From: Synechococcus sp. MU1617 | Lineage (GTDB): Bacteria > Cyanobacteriota > Cyanobacteriia > PCC-6307 > Cyanobiaceae | Reading direction: 5' to 3' | Length of the DNA: 64,000 nucleotides | Assembly (NCBI RefSeq): GCF_020514235.1 | Contig: NZ_VTLB01000004.1 | Span: 1-64,000, forward strand | Part shown: positions 8,561 to 30,697 of the stretch, piece after piece | Position numbering within the stretch: the first letter of the stretch is position 1 | Layout of the letters: each line of letters starts with the position of its first letter | Program-made: the position numbers and the translations under genes | The notes under the pieces: generated by a model | The model's database searches: none | What the model saw: the letters and a program-made list of their open reading frames with translations, nothing else | What the model was told of the DNA's origin: nothing

Positions 8561-9271
8561 TCAGCCGAGGGGATCGATCAGGCCGTAGAGCAACGCCATC
8601 ACAGCCAACTGGGTGCGATCAGCAGCACCCAACTTGTCTTTGGCATTCACCACGTGGGTCTTCACCGTTTCCACCGAGATACCGAGGCTGCTGCCGATGC
8701 CCTGGTTGGTGAGGCCGCGGGCGACGCCAGCCACCACCTCCAGTTCTCGCTCGGTGAGCTCTTCAATCAAGGGCGGCAGGTGCGGGTTCGGAGCCTCGGC
8801 CGCACCGAGCTTGCGAATCTCCTCAGGGAAATAGACGCCGCCTTCGGAAAGGGTGTGGAGAGCCTGGATGAAATCGCCCTTGCCGGTGCCCAGGCTTGAT
8901 TTGAAGATCACCGCATCGGCATAGGCCTGCATCGCCTCCTGCACCACGGCCTGGGTTTCACGCACCAGCACGATCAACAGCTGGCAGGTGGGCAGCTCCG
9001 CCTTGACCCGTCGCAGCAGGTTCATGCCGTAGCCGGTCTCCAGATCCGACGTGCAGATCAACAGGCTCGGCTTGTGGCGCAGCACCAGCTCAAACCCCTC
9101 CTCTTCGGTGGTGGCGGCACCCACCACGGCACGGCGAATCGGCTCCGCCAAGCAGAGGCAGGTGAGGGTGAGCCGATCACCGCAGCAGGCCACCACCCGC
9201 TGGGTCTTGAAAAACTCAGCCGTCGCTTCGATGGCTTCATGCAACGCGCGCGACTCGAGCCGCAGCTCCAT
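8561..9271 (-). CDS. LuxR/NarL-type transcriptional regulator with atypical receiver
   Basis: A 236-residue protein from ATG 9271; longer readings collide with the 9297-9482 gene. The C-terminal 60 residues are a clear LuxR helix-turn-helix (LTERELEVVAGVARGLTNQG, then GISVETVKTHVVNAKDKLG). The N-terminal 150 residues resemble a response-regulator receiver (KPSLLICTSDLETGYGMNLL), but spacing from the G-Y-G turn puts Thr/Ser, not Asp, at the usual phosphorylation site, and the N-terminal acidic pair is not evident. It may therefore not be controlled by a histidine kinase. Two palindromes at 9535-9582 lie upstream of this operon. Target genes unknown. Confidence 0.88.
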   Translation of the reverse strand: MELRLESRALHEAIEATAEFFKTQRVVACCGDRLTLTCLCLAEPIRRAVVGAATTEEEGFELVLRHKPSLLICTSDLETGYGMNLLRRVKAELPTCQLLIVLVRETQAVVQEAMQAYADAVIFKSSLGTGKGDFIQALHTLSEGGVYFPEEIRKLGAAEAPNPHLPPLIEELTERELEVVAGVARGLTNQGIGSSLGISVETVKTHVVNAKDKLGAADRTQLAVMALLYGLIDPLG

Positions 9272-9296: not shown

Positions 9297-9482
9297 TTAG
9301 CGGCGTTTGGATGGCTCAGCCGTGGAGCCATCACGCCCAGCATCTCGACGGACAACACCGCGGATGCAGTGGGGATAGCGCTCACGCCCCAGGCGCCAGG
9401 CCTGGGCGGCATCGGTCACTTGGACCGTTTCGGTCTGCAGCTCGCCCTTGCGCTGAAGAATCAGGTCGTACAGAGGAGACAT
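9297..9482 (-). CDS. Small hypothetical protein upstream of the LuxR gene
   Basis: A 61-residue ORF from ATG 9482 (MSPLYDLILQRKGELQTE). The first 40 residues look like a compact alpha/beta protein with HCIRGVVRR; the tail is basic. It ends 25 bases before the LuxR-type gene, on the same strand, so the two probably share a promoter next to the palindromes. Function unknown. Confidence 0.65.
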   Translation of the reverse strand: MSPLYDLILQRKGELQTETVQVTDAAQAWRLGRERYPHCIRGVVRRDAGRDGSTAEPSKRR

Positions 9483-9534
9483 AACAACCCACGACGCGCT
9501 CTTTTATTCAGCAACAAGGAAATGGATTCCACAT

Positions 9535-9582
9535 CCCTCAGTTGGGGGAGGCATGCGGATGGTCATTTCCCTCAACTGAGGG
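9535..9582. promoter_or_regulatory. Pair of CCCTCA-N2-TGAGGG palindromes
   Basis: Two 14-base near-palindromes, CCCTCAGTTGGGGG at 9535-9548 and the perfect CCCTCAACTGAGGG at 9569-9582, sit 34 bases apart centre to centre between the divergent 9482 (minus) and 9681 (+) starts. Related sites occur at 21581 and 25676. They look like operators for a dimeric regulator; the adjacent LuxR-type protein is a natural candidate but that link is an inference. Confidence 0.55.
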
Positions 9583-9680
9583 ATTTAGAGCAACGAAAAA
9601 AAGTCCCAAACCACCTTCGTGTCATTTGGCACAACAGCATTGAGTTAGAGCCAGCACATTGATGCTGTTGCTTGAAAGCT

Positions 9681-14548: not shown

Positions 14549-14926
14549 GTAATTCGTTATGCGAGGGCTTATCACCAATACACCAGGGTGATGCATGAAC
14601 ACCAGGCCTGGAAGGAGAGTGTTTTGGCTCCGGCCGGGCCCTGTTGGCTTACAAATCGACTTGCCTCACGCTGCTTGTTCTCCTCGCAGCGAACATGCCC
14701 ATCAACCATCAAGGAATTCTGACAAGAGCAGCTAATGGCGACTTTGTCGCCACACCAAATCAACGAGAAAGAAGAAGCGAAAAGTTATGAAATCAATAAC
14801 AGCAGGTCAACGATAATTATAAATTGAAAGGCGATAAGTAAAGCTCAACCAATTCTTATCCATTTGTTAATTAGTAGCGCCAGGCGAGGGTTAGATTTGA
14901 AAGCAAGGCCTTGGCAAAACATTGAA
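14549..14926. other. Intergenic region upstream of the phosphonate operon
   Basis: About 380 bases. From 14760 it becomes strongly AT-rich, unlike the flanks, and contains the Pho-box-like triple repeat at 14844-14873. A minus-strand frame 14572-14709 (45 residues) is possible but unconvincing. Confidence 0.6.
14844..14873 (+). promoter_or_regulatory. Candidate Pho box (three 8-base repeats, 11-base period)
   Basis: CTCAACCA, CTTATCCA and GTTAATTA are separated by 3-base spacers, an exact 11-base period. Each matches the cyanobacterial PhoB-box repeat (pyrimidine-TTAA-pyrimidine-pyrimidine-T/A) at 6 or 7 of 8 positions. It ends 53 bases before the phnC start. This predicts induction by phosphate limitation; binding is not shown. 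Confidence 0.65.
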
Positions 14927-16632
<1,706 letters not shown>

Positions 16633-16644
16633 ACACGTTCCTCT

Positions 16645-16677
16645 GTCCCGATGGTTCACACCATCGGGACCTTTTTT
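16645..16677 (+). terminator. Intrinsic terminator/attenuator between phnD and phnE
   Basis: GTCCCGATGG and CCATCGGGAC form a perfect 10-base stem with a 6-base loop, followed by CTTTTTTGTTTTT. It lies 13 bases after the phnD stop and 12 bases before phnE, inside the operon, so it should lower expression of the downstream genes relative to the binding protein. Confidence 0.9.
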
Positions 16678-16688
16678 GTTTTTCCTTT

Positions 16689-17498
16689 ATGAGTGCTTCC
16701 GTTGATTCCTATCGCGCCATTCTTCGGCGCCATGAGCTGCGATGGCGGCAGCAATTCCTCCGTGTTCTGGTGATTCTCACGGCGGTGGTTGGTTCCCTGG
16801 CCATTGTGGGCCTGTTTGATCCGAATCGAATCGCTACCGGGGTGCCGGCGATTTTGAACTTGCTGCCTGAAATGTTCCCACCGGATTTCGGGCGGTGGCA
16901 GTTCTGGATCAAGCCCTTGATCGACTCGATGGCCATGAGCATCGCGGGCACCTCAATCGCTGTTTTCTTCTCACTGTTGCTCTGTTTCTTCGCAGCAAGA
17001 AACACCAGCCCCAGCCGTGGCTTGTACGTCATGGCCACCGCAATACTCAACGTGACCCGAGCCGTTCCCGAGCTAATTCTCGGCATGATTCTTGTGGCCG
17101 CCGTGGGCTTCGGAGCACTGCCCGGAACGCTGGCCCTCGGTCTTCACTCCGTTGGCATGCTCGGCAAGTTCTACGCCGAGGCGATCGAGCTGTGTGATCA
17201 AGAACCGATCGAAGCCGCCCGCTCCTCAGGGGCATCTGAACTGCAGGTGATCGTTCACAGCATCCTTCCCCAGGTGTTCCCAGCCATGGCGGATGTCACG
17301 TTCTACCGCTGGGAATACAACTTCCGGGCTTCGATGGTGGTGGGCGCCGTGGGTGCCGGTGGCATTGGCTTGGAAATCATCAGTGCCCTGCGGATCATGG
17401 AGTACCAACAGGTCTCAGCCCTGCTGTTGGTGGTGCTCGTGGTGGTTACGGCGCTCGATTCAATGAGCAATGCCCTGCGCCATTGGATGGTGCAATGA
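16689..17498 (+). CDS. phnE: Phosphonate/phosphite ABC transporter permease
   Basis: A 269-residue inner-membrane permease with about six helices (VLVILTAVVGSLAIVGLF, SIAVFFSLLLCFFAA, VTRAVPELILGMILVAA, SALLLVVLVVVTAL). The cytoplasmic EAA-type loop is EAARSSGASELQVIVHSILPQ, which docks on the ATPase. N-VTRAVPELI is typical of PhnE. Its stop overlaps the ptxD start by ATGA, so the two are translationally coupled. Alternative name ptxC. Confidence 0.95.
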   Translation: MSASVDSYRAILRRHELRWRQQFLRVLVILTAVVGSLAIVGLFDPNRIATGVPAILNLLPEMFPPDFGRWQFWIKPLIDSMAMSIAGTSIAVFFSLLLCFFAARNTSPSRGLYVMATAILNVTRAVPELILGMILVAAVGFGALPGTLALGLHSVGMLGKFYAEAIELCDQEPIEAARSSGASELQVIVHSILPQVFPAMADVTFYRWEYNFRASMVVGAVGAGGIGLEIISALRIMEYQQVSALLLVVLVVVTALDSMSNALRHWMVQ

Positions 17499-18496
17499 CA
17501 ACCCTCGTGAGCCATCAACACCGGCCCCATCTGGTGGTCACGAACTATGTGCAAGAGGAGGTCATTGACTTCCTCTCCGAATTCGCACGGGTCACCGCCA
17601 ATCGCAGCCGGGAACCCTGGAGCCGTCGATCTTTGCTGGAGGCAGCAGCGGACGCCGACGGCCTGCTGATGTTCATGCCGGATTGCGTCGATGCCGACTT
17701 TCTTGATCACTGCCCGCGGCTGCGCTCGATTGCCGGAGCCCTGCGTGGTTTCGACAACTTTGATCTATCCGCCTGTGATGCACGGGAGATTCGCTATCAA
17801 TTCATCCCCAATTTGTTGGCGGCACCAACGGCAGAACTCACCGTTGCGATGCTGATCAGCCTGGCGCGATCCATCCCGGCAGGGGATGCCTTCGTGCGCA
17901 CAGGTCAGTTCCCTGGATGGCGGCCGAACTTCTACTCCAAAGGAGTGATTAACAGCACAGTTGGCATCGTGGGAATGGGGCAACTCGGCCTTGAATTCGC
18001 CGAGCGCATGCGGGGCTTCGGCGCAACGCTCCTCTACAGCGATCCCGTTCGTCTTGATCGCCAATCTGAGCAACGTCTTGAGCTGCAGCATGTGGAGTTC
18101 AACGACGTGATTGAACGCAGTGATCACCTGGTGCTGATGGTGCCGCTCACAAACGACACGCTGCATCTGATCAATGCGGATGTGTTGGCCCGATGCAAGC
18201 CGGGAGCGGTGCTGATCAATCCATGCCGCGGCTCGGTGGTGGATGAACAGGCTGTTGTGCGGGCACTGCAATCGGGCCAGCTGGGGGGCTACGGAGCAGA
18301 TGTTTTTGAGATGGAGGACTGGGCCCGACAGGACCACCCCAAATCCATTCCCCAGGCCTTGCTCGATCAACGCGATCGCACCGTGCTCACGCCGCACATC
18401 GGTTCGGCCGTTCAATCGATCCGCGATGACATCGCCATGACAGCGGCCCGCAATCTCAAGGCACTTGTTCAGACCACCTTGTTGCCGATCAAATGA
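17495..18496 (+). CDS. ptxD: Phosphite dehydrogenase
   Basis: A 333-residue D-2-hydroxyacid dehydrogenase family protein that oxidises phosphite to phosphate with NAD+. The match to characterised PtxD is close in the diagnostic regions: PTAEL, DAFVRTGQFPGW, NPCRGSVVDE (catalytic Arg245), GADVFEMEDWARQD (Glu274) and LTPHIGSAV (His301). The Rossmann motif GMGQLG is at 161-165 and an Asp (YSD, 183) suggests NAD+ preference. One deviation: the active-site Lys76 of the Pseudomonas enzyme is Arg84 here (ALRGFDNFD). Starts within the phnE stop and its own stop overlaps the phnY start. Confidence 0.95.
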   Translation: MTTLVSHQHRPHLVVTNYVQEEVIDFLSEFARVTANRSREPWSRRSLLEAAADADGLLMFMPDCVDADFLDHCPRLRSIAGALRGFDNFDLSACDAREIRYQFIPNLLAAPTAELTVAMLISLARSIPAGDAFVRTGQFPGWRPNFYSKGVINSTVGIVGMGQLGLEFAERMRGFGATLLYSDPVRLDRQSEQRLELQHVEFNDVIERSDHLVLMVPLTNDTLHLINADVLARCKPGAVLINPCRGSVVDEQAVVRALQSGQLGGYGADVFEMEDWARQDHPKSIPQALLDQRDRTVLTPHIGSAVQSIRDDIAMTAARNLKALVQTTLLPIK

Positions 18497-19257
18497 CCAA
18501 CATCACAACGCACTGGGATCCGAAGGATCTCCTTCAATTCAAAGGGCTTCATCAGCAAGACGGTGTCGTTCATGTGCCTGGCTTGGTGGCAAGCGACGCC
18601 ATGGCCGAGCTGTTGGCTTGGGTTGACGACATTTCCAACGCGTCAACCCTGGGGCGCCACTACTTCGAAAGCACAGCCCACGGCCGGGTCAAAGCGCGAA
18701 CCGAAGACTTCGCCAAGGATCACCCTCCCCTGCATCAGTTCCTAACCCAAGGGCGGGTGCACGACGTACTCGAAGCATTGTTTGGCGAGCCACCGGTGCT
18801 GTTCAAGGAAAAGATCAACTACAAGCACCCCGGTGCAGCCGGGTATGCCCCCCATCAGGATGCACCGGCCTATCCGTATGGCTCCCTGCACATCACGATG
18901 CTGCTGGCCTTGGATTCAGCTGATACCAACAATGGTTGCTTGGAATTCGCCAAGGGGGCCCATCACAACGGGGTGATTGGCGTGAATGCCGATGGATGTC
19001 TACCGATTGAGCAGGCATCCCAACTCGAATGGACGCCGATGCCTGTGGCTGCTGGCGACGCTGTGTTCTTCAACTCCTTTGCACCGCACCGCAGCGGCAC
19101 AAACCGCTCCGATCGTTCACGCCGCGCGCTGTACGTCACCTACAACGCCAGCTCCGAAGGCGATCTGAGATCGGAGTACTACGACCACAAAAAGCAGGCG
19201 CTGGCTGAAGGGCGCGTCAGCTTGATCAACCATTTTCTCGGGGAGGACGTCTCATGA
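18493..19257 (+). CDS. phnY: PhyH-family Fe(II)/2-oxoglutarate dioxygenase, PhnY-like
   Basis: A 254-residue phytanoyl-CoA dioxygenase family protein. The iron-binding facial triad is visible as H121-x-D123 (YAPHQDAP) and His199 (FAPHRSGTN); basic residues near 207-211 can hold 2-oxoglutarate. In oxidative phosphonate use, PhnY hydroxylates the alpha carbon of 2-aminoethylphosphonate or, in the PhnY* variant, methylphosphonate. The next gene is the PhnZ partner, with a 4-base ATGA overlap. Substrate cannot be settled from sequence. Confidence 0.9.
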   Translation: MTNITTHWDPKDLLQFKGLHQQDGVVHVPGLVASDAMAELLAWVDDISNASTLGRHYFESTAHGRVKARTEDFAKDHPPLHQFLTQGRVHDVLEALFGEPPVLFKEKINYKHPGAAGYAPHQDAPAYPYGSLHITMLLALDSADTNNGCLEFAKGAHHNGVIGVNADGCLPIEQASQLEWTPMPVAAGDAVFFNSFAPHRSGTNRSDRSRRALYVTYNASSEGDLRSEYYDHKKQALAEGRVSLINHFLGEDVS

Positions 19258-19856
19258 CCGCACTGGCCGACCACGCCATGGAATGGATGAAATCCATGCA
19301 AGCGGGGAGTCGCGAAGAGCGCGTTGATCTGCTCTTCGCCTATCTGCACACCCATGGGCAATCCAGCTACGACCCATCGGTGACGCAGCTGGAGCATGCT
19401 CTACAGACAGCGCATCTGGCCCAACAGGAGTCGCACCAGCCCCACATGGTGGTGGCATCACTGCTTCATGACATCGGCCATCTGATGATTGATGAACACG
19501 ATGAGCGGGGGGATTTCCTCGATCAAGACTGTGCCCATGAGGCCGTCGCAGCCCGAGCACTCTCAGTGTTCTTCCCCACGCAGGTCGTTGCCCCCGTACA
19601 GCGGCATGTCTCAGCCAAACGGCTGCTGTGCTCCCTGGATGAGACGTATTACGCGGGACTATCGGAAGCATCGAAACGCAGCTTTGCCGTGCAAGGCGGA
19701 GAGCTGAGCCGTTCTGAAGCAATGCGGCTGTTGGCCTTAGAGGGGATGGACGATGCCATGGCACTACGGCGCTGGGACGACCGTGCCAAGGTTGATGGGG
19801 TTGAAGTGCCCGACTTGGATGCCTACAGGCAGGTGGTCTTGGACCATCTGGTGTGA
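19254..19856 (+). CDS. phnZ: HD-domain oxygenase, PhnZ-like (C-P bond cleavage)
   Basis: A 200-residue HD-fold protein. Metal ligands in family order: His54 (LQTAH), His72-Asp73 (LLHDIGHL), His95 (CAHEA), His118 (QRHVSA) and Asp175/176 (RWDDRA). PhnZ uses a mixed-valence diiron centre and O2 to split the C-P bond of the hydroxylated phosphonate, giving phosphate plus glycine or formate. Glu47, seven residues before His54, sits where characterised PhnZ has a substrate-amine-contacting Glu, which would favour an aminophosphonate, but that reading is from memory. Last gene of the operon. Confidence 0.92.
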   Translation: MTALADHAMEWMKSMQAGSREERVDLLFAYLHTHGQSSYDPSVTQLEHALQTAHLAQQESHQPHMVVASLLHDIGHLMIDEHDERGDFLDQDCAHEAVAARALSVFFPTQVVAPVQRHVSAKRLLCSLDETYYAGLSEASKRSFAVQGGELSRSEAMRLLALEGMDDAMALRRWDDRAKVDGVEVPDLDAYRQVVLDHLV

Positions 19857-20052: not shown

Positions 20053-21453
20053 TCAAGAAGCGACCAGAGCGGGGGTCGAACAGGAACGAACCCAACCCAG
20101 TTTTCGCTCCACTTCCTGAATCATTTGACCGGCGAGATCCTTACCCGTCGCCGTTTCAATTCCCTCGAGCCCAGGGCTGGAATTCACCTCCAGAAGCAAG
20201 GGCCCACGCTCCGAGCGGATGATGTCTACACCGGCCACGTCAAGGCCGAGCGCCCGTGTCGCCGCCACAGCCAGCTTGCGCTCCTCAGGCCGGATGCGCA
20301 CCGCTTGAGCTGAACCACCCTGGTGAATGTTGGAGCGAAAGTCGCCCACTGCAGCTGTCCGCTCAATGGCCGACACCACCTTGTTGCCAATCACGAAACA
20401 ACGCAGGTCCTTTCCACCGGCCTCCTTGATGAATTCCTGAACCAGCAAGTTGGCGTTCAGGCTCTTCATGGCATTGATCACACTCTCTGCAGCCTTCTGG
20501 GTTTCCGCCAAAACGACGCCACGCCCTTGGGCGCCCTCCAGAAGCTTGAGGATCAGCGGTGCGCCGCCCACCATCTTGATCAGATCCTTGGTGTCGAGCG
20601 GAGAACTGGCAAAACCGGTAACCGGCATGCTCAGCCCATGGCGCACAAACAGCTGTGACGCCAGAAGCTTGTCGCGGGATCGTTTGATCGGCTCAGCAGC
20701 ATTGAGAACACGAATGCCCATCGCCTCAAACTGACGGGTGATCGCGCATCCGTAGAAGGTGACGCTCGGACGAATGCGGGGGATCACCGCATCGATGCGC
20801 TCGAGCACATTGCCACCCCGGTAATGCATCTCGGGGTTCTGCGGATCGAGCCGCATGTAGCACTGCTTGACGTTGAGGAATTCCATGCGGTGTCCGCGCT
20901 CCTCACCCGCCTCCAGCAGTCGACGGTTGCTGTAAAGCTCTGGATCCGAGGCGAGCAGAGCAATGCGGAGGCCCGTGCGTTCGGTGCGCAAGGCCGCATA
21001 CATCCCTTCCAGGTGGGCCGGTTCAACGTCACCCAGTTGATGGCTCCCCTCAGGATCCACAAGCACGCGCCCCACCATTGCCTCGCGACCGAGCAACATC
21101 CGGTAGCCCATCGCATCCCTGTTCGTGAGGGTGAGTTCAATCGGCCAACGCTTCTCGCCGAGCACCAACTCTTCCCGAATCACATAGCGGGTTTCCGAGA
21201 TGCCACTGGTGTTGCGCACGCCGCGTTGCTCCAGCACCGGCGCCTCATGGCGCACCACCACACTGCGGTCGTTCTGGAGCGGATGCACCTCAAAACTGAT
21301 CCACAGCTCACCATCCCTCTGGAAGGGGACAATGTTGAAGGCATGCAACGACGACGTCGCCGCGCCGGAATCGACGCGTGCCTTAATCGCCGGCAATCCA
21401 AGCCCTGGCAGGGAGCACCACTCCTCACTGCCGACGATGAGTTTGTTGGTCAA
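20053..21453 (-). CDS. RimB-RimK fusion: aspartic-protease-like domain plus ATP-grasp ligase
   Basis: A 466-residue two-domain protein. Residues 1-140 match the so-called ATP-dependent zinc protease/RimB family, with the retropepsin-like Asp motif VDSGAATSS near residue 28. Residues 165-460 are a RimK-type ATP-grasp ligase with [35 protein letters not shown], and [15 protein letters not shown] as the Mg-ATP site. RimK adds glutamates to a protein C-terminus, classically ribosomal protein S6, and RimB trims them. The fusion therefore joins writing and processing functions in one chain; the target here is unknown. Confidence 0.9.
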
Positions 21454-21580
21454 GGCCGCTGTGGGTCCTTATCGAGAGAGCGCGAAATCATAGAACTCCT
21501 GTAGCCGTTTCAACCAACTGATTGGCACCAACGGATCCATCCCCATCCACCAAATGGGTGAACTTTCCGGGCTTGGCCCT

Positions 21581-21594
21581 CCCTCAAATGGGGA
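21581..21594. promoter_or_regulatory. CCCTCA-type palindrome
   Basis: CCCTCAAATGGGGA lies between the divergent rimK-like (minus) and acid phosphatase (+) genes. It is a weaker version of the palindromes at 9535-9582 and 25676-25689. Confidence 0.4.
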
Positions 21595-21726
21595 AATCAC
21601 CCAGGTTCACTATCCAACGTCTCAGAAAAAAGCTCGATGACCATCAAAAAGAGGTGAGATGAGCCGATTCGAACGGCATCCAGTCGTTTATATGGCTCTC
21701 ATGAAACGAAATAGCTATTTCTGAAG

Positions 21727-22599
21727 ATGCCAGGCTGGTGCCTCCTAATGCGTCGGATTGAACTGGGTCTTTTGGTGTTGGCGCTTTTCGGACTAGGAGG
21801 CATCACAGGTCTCCCGGCAGAAGCAGGACAACCCACCTACTGCGAATCCAACGTCGGATCACCAAGTGATCTGAAGGAGTTGAAACACGGTCTCCTGCAG
21901 GGCTACCTCGATCCGAAAACGCTTCCCGACTCCCTCAAACTGCTTGCTCCTCCACCGGTACCTGGATCAGCAGCACAGGCACTCGATGAAGAGATCGCCA
22001 AGGCCAATTTTTCACATGAAGGCACTGCACGCTGGAGCCAAGCAGCAACGGATGCCGATCTGAACTTTCCTGCCGCCGCATCGATCTTTTCCTGCAGTTT
22101 GGGCATCGAAATTTCAGAAGAACGCACACCGAGGCTTTACACGCTCCTGCGTCGATCACTCACCGATGCGGGATTGGCGTCTTACAAAGCCAAGAACCAC
22201 TACCAGCGATCAAGGCCGTTCATGAGCAATGGGGAGTCGATCTGCACCCCTGATGATGAGAATGCTCTGCGAACCGACGGCTCCTACCCATCTGGTCACA
22301 CCTCTGTGGGCTGGGCCTGGGCTCTGATCCTCAGTGAGATTGCCCCCAACCAACAGGATCAAATCCTCCAACGGGGAATGGATTACGGAAGGAGCCGAAA
22401 CATCTGCAACGTTCACTGGCACAGCGACGTTCAAGCGGGGCAGCTCATTGGCGCAGCAACGGTGGCACAACTGCATGCCAACCCCGTGTTCCGTGCTGAT
22501 CTGCGGGCAGCACGCAAAGAAGTGAAGGCGCAGCAAGCCGCCAACAACAGTGCGAACTCGATCAGCTGCAAGCGGGAGCAAGCGGCATTACAGCCCTAA
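21727..22599 (+). CDS. Class A acid phosphatase (PAP2 superfamily), secreted
   Basis: A 290-residue phosphatase with an N-terminal signal sequence (LGLLVLALFGLGGITGLPAEA), so likely periplasmic. The complete catalytic signature is present: K156-x6-R163-P164 (KNHYQRSRP), PSGH at 188-191 and S223-R224-x5-H230-x3-D234 (SRNICNVHWHSD); His230 is the nucleophile and His191 the acid. Enzymes of this PhoN type hydrolyse many phosphomonoesters. Its place 2 kb behind the phosphonate operon suggests phosphorus scavenging, but no Pho box is evident upstream. An ATG at 21748 is an alternative start. Confidence 0.95.
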   Translation: MPGWCLLMRRIELGLLVLALFGLGGITGLPAEAGQPTYCESNVGSPSDLKELKHGLLQGYLDPKTLPDSLKLLAPPPVPGSAAQALDEEIAKANFSHEGTARWSQAATDADLNFPAAASIFSCSLGIEISEERTPRLYTLLRRSLTDAGLASYKAKNHYQRSRPFMSNGESICTPDDENALRTDGSYPSGHTSVGWAWALILSEIAPNQQDQILQRGMDYGRSRNICNVHWHSDVQAGQLIGAATVAQLHANPVFRADLRAARKEVKAQQAANNSANSISCKREQAALQP

Positions 22600-25661: not shown

Positions 25662-25675
25662 CAACGCAAAACTGT

Positions 25676-25689
25676 CCCTCAATGGAGGG
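25676..25689. promoter_or_regulatory. CCCTCA-AT-GGAGGG palindrome
   Basis: CCCTCAATGGAGGG, a near-perfect palindrome of the class seen at 9535-9582, lies 15 bases upstream of the 25661 start and downstream of the 25736-25909 gene. Confidence 0.5.
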
Positions 25690-25735
25690 AGTGTTCAGAC
25701 CATCTCCATTCCTGCAATGGGGGTAAAAGGCCAGT

Positions 25736-30527: not shown

Positions 30528-30697
30528 GCCGAACAAAATTCTTGTTCTGTAACAGCGCGAACGACACGTGGGATTGCACCACTCCTATAAAGGATCTGTA
30601 GCAACTGCTACGCATTCACGTTCACCTCGTCTTCGGCGAGGCGCAGTTCGATTCAGGCCATGGAACGGGGACCTGAGCTTGCTTCGAGGAACTCATC

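Follow-up and report, generated by a model that had tools for sequence, protein, structure and literature searches.

A paired NarL-type palindrome as the putative operator of a LuxR-type regulator in Synechococcus sp. MU1617 and related Cyanobiaceae

A short palindrome recurs in the window, the whole 64,000-nucleotide stretch of Synechococcus sp. MU1617 DNA that was analysed, and two of its copies stand in front of a minus-strand operon that encodes a LuxR-type regulator. The first-pass annotation had described a 14-base palindrome, CCCTCA-N2-TGAGGG, at positions 9535, 9569, 21581 and 25676, and all four copies are present there. The repeat is real; the actual unit is larger, a pair of 16-bp palindromes of the form TCCCYCA-NN-TGRGGGA (a 7-2-7 inverted repeat) with starts 34 bp apart. 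Each of the three clusters in the window is one such two-part element, at 9534/9568, 21546/21580 and 25675/25709, the last partner being degenerate; the partner 14-mers at 21547 and 25710 had been overlooked. The pair placed in the promoter region of the LuxR gene does lie upstream of it, but the first gene of the operon encodes a 61-residue protein (9297–9482), with the LuxR gene behind. The features are as follows.

9534–9549, no strand: palindrome A of the first element, TCCCTCAGTTGGGGGA (7-2-7), promoter-proximal for the minus-strand operon
9568–9583, no strand: palindrome B of the first element, TCCCTCAACTGAGGGA, perfect, start 34 bp after that of palindrome A
9506–9511, minus strand: −10-like box CTGAAT of a putative promoter, exactly 22 bp from palindrome A
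9297–9482, minus strand: first operon gene, for a 61-residue protein that begins MSPLYDLILQRKGEL; the element lies about 50 bp from its start codon
8561–9271, minus strand: NarL/LuxR-type regulator of 236 residues, behind the 61-residue gene; candidate binder
21546–21561, no strand: palindrome A of the second element, TCCACCAAATGGGTGA, two mismatches, new to this analysis
21580–21595, no strand: palindrome B of the second element, TCCCTCAAATGGGGAA, between the RimK-type and PAP2 phosphatase genes
20053–21453, minus strand: RimK-type gene flanking the second element
21748–22599, plus strand: PAP2 phosphatase gene flanking the second element
25675–25690, no strand: palindrome A of the third element, TCCCTCAATGGAGGGA
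25709–25724, no strand: degenerate palindrome B of the third element, TTCCTGCAATGGGGGT

Elsewhere in the window lie a Glutamine-II riboswitch (30616–30677, plus strand, 72 bits) and a phosphonate/phosphite cluster (14864–19856, plus strand). The cluster comprises ABC transporter genes (PhnC, PhnD-type and PhnE), a relative of 2-hydroxyacid dehydrogenases that is a candidate phosphite dehydrogenase by position, and PhnY- and PhnZ-like oxygenases with scores under the curated cut-offs.

The geometry of the element is strict. Across 48 elements the two heptamers of TCCCYCA-NN-TGRGGGA are inverted with 2 bp between them, and the arms are complementary in 37–48 of the 48 at each of the seven arm positions. 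A simple consensus applied to 914,784 bp of fetched loci yields 46 pairs at 33–35 bp, with a spacing of 34 bp in 41 of them, 35 bp in four and 33 bp in one; a few pairs stand at other distances (38, 43, 44, 61 and 95 bp). Five pairs, in two genomes of the sister genus, are 43–45 bp apart, one helical turn more, as expected if the protein binds one face of the DNA. The spacer between the palindromes is mostly not conserved, and single palindromes also exist besides the pairs.

Counting the motif gives different answers at different scales. In the window the 14-mer is not enriched: against an expectation of 4.28 there are six matches with at most two mismatches, a number that 25 of 100 shuffles also attained. 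In the MU1617 genome as a whole (G000; 2.32 Mb, 10 contigs) the motif occurs at 123 places and its reversed form at 60; the first 50 of the 123 include at least five pairs starting exactly 34 bp apart. These genomic pairs are the unbiased part of the spacing evidence, the fetched loci having been picked for holding elements. Eight paired elements were found in this genome, and a profile built from them recovers its eight training elements at E ≤ 1.3e-7 (by construction), the next new place following at E 0.088 among the best 150 of 290 first-look candidates scored. Scanning with a score matrix finds 41 elements in 804,764 bp of fetched loci, which were chosen for containing elements and used to train the matrix, against none in the same DNA reversed; the simple consensus finds 145 single palindromes in the 914,784 bp against 11 for the reversed control.

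Within the genus, 27 of 34 genomes contain one or more matches at E ≤ 0.02 among 150 scored candidates (the positive in G035 is marginal, at 0.0195), and G029 is the genome with the most matches of all. In a family sample of 300 genomes at least 29 have a match at E ≤ 1e-4, confined to two of 59 genera; the sister-genus calls were made at this threshold with stricter filters and 19 candidates scored per genome, and element counts per genome are lower bounds throughout. The first profile, at E ≤ 1, gave a weak match in 8 of 11 genomes outside the genus (best 0.063). The element is a real and conserved two-site putative operator of the NarL type, found in two genera of the family.

The regulator encoded at 8561–9271 has a GerE helix-turn-helix at residues 171–226 (PF00196, E 1.2e-16), and its matches among solved structures include VraR (4gvp, E 1.6e-17) and NarL (1a04, E 2.4e-10), which are among the best by sequence. 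It may bind DNA like NarL. It departs from these relatives in its receiver, which scores 29.6 bits against PF00072, just under the Pfam cut-off of 30.2. In the VraR alignment, which covers residues 49–232, a Thr takes the position of the VraR Asp that we take to be the phospho-acceptor; the acceptor Asp is absent, and phosphorylation at this position probably does not switch the protein. In a search of named genomes the close matches of the regulator were four Synechococcus records, including strain MU1642. The 61-residue protein encoded ahead of it found nothing significant beyond itself in its own genome (next E 0.07); its apparent kinship with other small proteins beginning like MxPxYDL rests on the N-terminus, compared by eye.

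The link between regulator and element is visible first at the regulator gene itself. Conservation of the motif upstream of orthologous LuxR genes holds at 22 of 25 loci in two genera, with a palindrome scoring at least 15 within 800 bp upstream; these palindromes belong to one inherited locus, so the 22 cases are not independent. They comprise 11 of the 14 unbroken genes of the own genus (identity at least 63%) and all 11 genes of the sister genus (identity at least 67%; one with an internal stop), where the site is mostly one palindrome with a weak partner. The gene is present and an upstream site scoring 15 absent in G032, G017 and G031. The palindrome lies 264–328 bp before the gene in 19 of the 22 cases and 497–630 bp before it in G007, G039 and G030, there without a box at 22 bp (see below). 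Only two of 18 more distant LuxR relatives examined have an upstream site, a set from which L269, L276–L278 and L189–L194, for example, were left out; a second LuxR-like copy in G292 (64%), which has no site, was counted with these relatives and would make the figure 22 of 26 if included. The reversed control contains one such half-site in 836,482 bp.

Eight LuxR loci of the own genus are broken, truncated or partial. The fetched flanks contain an element or half-element at six of them; the two exceptions are G016 and G040, and the match in G040 extends to the end of its contig. The truncated gene of G013 has the element directly next to it. In G029 (C1:1414084–1414736) a frameshift separates the receiver-like part of LuxR from the DNA-binding part, whose frame is open, and G042 likewise retains the DNA-binding part in one open piece.

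Across whole genomes of both genera, LuxR and the elements tend to be present or absent together. In the own genus, elements occur in 22 of 22 genomes with LuxR versus 5 of 12 without (Fisher p 1.5e-4, kinship ignored), and the five exceptions (G034, G035, G015, G012 and G010) are all incomplete; complete genomes alone give 16 of 16 versus 0 of 3. In the sister genus the figures are 9 of 10 versus 1 of 13 (Fisher p 1.1e-4, kinship ignored). This second table is approximate, because G117 and G228 were scored as element-less and a direct scan of their LuxR-like loci shows the site; it also leaves out 8 of 31 genomes (handles above G320), taken as outside the 300-genome sample. Broken and partial LuxR genes were scored as present in both tables, with an author-set cut-off of about 60% identity; G317 (57%), a 61% fragment in G302, G037 (50%, with stops) and G034 (44%) were scored as LuxR-absent.

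A part of the sites stands in fixed register with a promoter-like box. The patterns CTSAATR and GATGGTG, both picked after viewing alignments of LuxR orthologues and leader genes, occur 41 times in 293 outward flanks of 80 bases each, and 31 of the 41 lie exactly 22 bp out. These 31 cases are 18 LuxR loci, 11 genes with a shared homologous leader and two other small-protein genes; one of these last two is at C1:5909 of the MU1617 genome, beside what looks like a lone palindrome. Neither box accompanies most of the elements, and a TANNNT box gave no peak at a fixed distance outside the element. The distance of about 50 bp from element to start codon of the 61-residue gene is the same in G001, G005 and G009. 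If the box is a −10 hexamer, the two palindromes would centre near −42.5 and −76.5.

The genes with the shared leader are found in G000, G003, G005, G009, G010 and G015, and several of their products look secreted. Small genes downstream of elements (L080, L086, L095, L096, L099, L101, L105 and others) have a common leader like CTGGAACGGNGATGGTGTGTTCACGGGGCGAGAGCCCC, at which Rfam gave no match. Downstream of leader genes lies a conserved stretch of about 70–105 bases (L016 from about 2550, L099, L160 and L096; in the MU1617 genome, G009 and G015), which begins GTCGGGAAGCCTGA in three of the four loci and likewise has no Rfam match. In the sister genus, the elements of L281, L288, L290 and L294 stand about 100–210 bp (400 bp in L290) before genes that partly resemble toxin-antitoxin pairs, as named by eye from their sequence.

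This arrangement is close to one in Escherichia coli. According to the abstract of PMC7419079, NarL activates ogt from tandem 7-2-7 sites centred at −44.5 and −77.5, a position at odds with the introduction of the same paper, where the upstream site lies 43 bp upstream. By the abstract's figures the centres of the two inverted repeats are 33 bp apart at ogt and 34 bp here, and the nearer repeat abuts the −35 element at ogt, to be compared here with a predicted transcript start. One NarL site suffices at yeaR-yoaG (PMC7419079), and the mostly single palindromes at the LuxR loci of the sister genus might suffice likewise. The differences from ogt are the heptamer TCCCYCA, a regulator without the phospho-acceptor Asp, and the many copies between convergent genes. 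Paired GC-rich palindromes are also bound by DevR/DosR of Mycobacterium, a LuxR-family regulator; its box sequence and spacing are unlike those of the element. REP/BIME sequences and DNA uptake repeats are short intergenic palindromes too. The present element differs from them in its small copy number (eight in the MU1617 genome), in a spacer that mostly varies and in the promoter register, which is fixed at part of the sites.

The explanation we favour, with a probability of roughly 0.65, is a new putative operator and regulon of the NarL/LuxR type, with the LuxR protein of 8561–9271 as likely binder and probable autoregulation. Co-occurrence and site architecture make this protein the most likely binder. 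The element would be a double-stranded-DNA operator for a regulator of the NarL/FixJ type (LuxR family), in which each 16-bp 7-2-7 palindrome is the site for one dimer. Two dimers would sit 34 bp apart, upstream of a promoter with a −10-like box 22 bp from the nearer palindrome; near −42.5 and −76.5 they would occupy an activator position, comparable to that of NarL at ogt. The protein would in this way control its own operon and a small regulon, composed of small proteins beginning like MxPxYDL and of small genes, several secreted-looking, behind the shared leader. The sequences show the paired sites, their conservation, the 22-bp register and the association with LuxR; binding and activation by the LuxR protein and the position of the transcription start are what we infer. 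The kind of system is already known; no title listed from the open-licence literature searched names the motif, and neither the operator nor the regulon came up there.

The first-pass annotation had already suggested a regulon operator, possibly autoregulated, and co-occurrence and conservation make this the best explanation, but one part of the distribution sits badly with it. The motif is, as anticipated, much more frequent in intergenic than in coding DNA: of 46 paired sites, 40 fall outside genes, in loci where a simple codon-based gene caller marks 75% as coding. Not every copy is intergenic; the element at C2:44756 of the MU1617 genome, for one, overlaps the end of a pseudouridine-synthase reading frame. 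For 51 elements (eight from the MU1617 genome and 43 from relatives, a set that counts orthologues and a few weak or one-sided matches) the flanking genes are convergent in 17 cases, divergent in 13 and tandem in 15, with 6 unclassed; the same caller misses small genes, so these contexts are approximate. A simple operator does not fit the copies between convergent genes. Two such positions are conserved. One is bchM|pseudouridine synthase, with an overlap between the element and the last part of the synthase frame in several genomes; the other is GH57|lycopene cyclase, which is kept in the sister genus too (L280; genes recognised from their first residues).

The binder could also be another protein, either a different NarL-type regulator or an unrecognised one, with LuxR merely among the targets. 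Elements do persist in G001, G029, G041 and G042, complete genomes with good elements in which LuxR is broken or split, and they occur without a close LuxR in the complete genome G287 (12 matches, the closest LuxR being a 41% relative only) and in the incomplete G034, G015, G012 and G010. This reading is nevertheless unlikely, given that LuxR and elements track each other in two genera and that the DNA-binding part of LuxR is still open, in one piece, in two of the genomes with a damaged gene, G029 and G042.

Autotransporter genes bring a second kind of explanation into view. Copies of such genes (PF03797) with near-identical ends adjoin an element by their 3′ end at four core loci, three in G005 and one in G000. 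Among close copies of the autotransporter beta-domain, 7 of 10 (six genomes) have an element no more than about 180 bp from the 3′ end of the gene; the copies without one are G000:C3 and those of the element-less genomes G006 and G014. At G005:C9:45634–55500 (L084/L108/L109) there is a tandem array of bchM, element, chitinase, element, autotransporter, element and autotransporter, followed by the pseudouridine synthase gene; the chitinase is of family GH18. In G029 the stretch that separates the element from the normal flank seems to retain just the end of an autotransporter gene. Two elements of G000, at C1:631377 and C1:93305, are near-identical over about 53 bp and have unrelated flanks; elements have therefore been copied.

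It is conceivable, though distinctly improbable, that the element is an operator and at the same time a landing site where surface-protein and chitinase genes repeatedly insert, copy and vanish. Still less credible is the idea that the element serves as an attachment or boundary site for the insertion or exchange of gene cassettes (autotransporters, chitinase). The 7 of 10 autotransporter copies that adjoin an element, at three different core loci in G005, the autotransporter-like remnant in G029 and the copying between C1:631377 and C1:93305 would all suit it. However, two G005 insertions checked at both ends (GH57|crtL and c67|TG) have one element each and not two, which argues against plain site-specific recombination. 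PF00589, the one recombinase profile searched, occurs in 34 of 34 genomes, element-bearing and element-less alike; many elements lie at core loci without cargo genes, and the 22-bp register with the −10-like box would be left unaccounted for.

A structured terminator or pair of RNA hairpins at gene ends is highly improbable: the palindromic form, the 17 of 51 copies between convergent genes (some 7 bp past the stop codon), the few flanks that extend the stem, as at GH57|crtL, and second-palindrome flanks that pair slightly above control (18–26 of 48 versus 9–23 of 48) are set against first-palindrome and long-range flanks that pair as the control does, the lack of an obvious T-run by eye in the flanks viewed, a spacing held at 34 or 43–45 bp and the 13 of 51 elements between divergent genes. 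An extended hairpin with covarying flanks, hinted at by a few GH57|crtL copies, fails over the 48 elements, and Rfam gave no match at the window elements, at L016–L020 or at 11 loci of relatives.

Marine Synechococcus is a major phototroph of the ocean, and a defined operator is known for few of its regulons. The LuxR-type putative operator offers a concrete candidate, with sequence, spacing and register, together with a candidate regulator and a short list of targets, all testable in laboratory strains. Several of the targets are small proteins of unknown role, and the element is a handle on what may be a lineage-specific response. If the element is also a landing site, newly gained cell-surface genes would arrive beside a site belonging to a LuxR-type regulator already resident; should the connection with variable surface genes be functional, it would show how resident control captures new genes.
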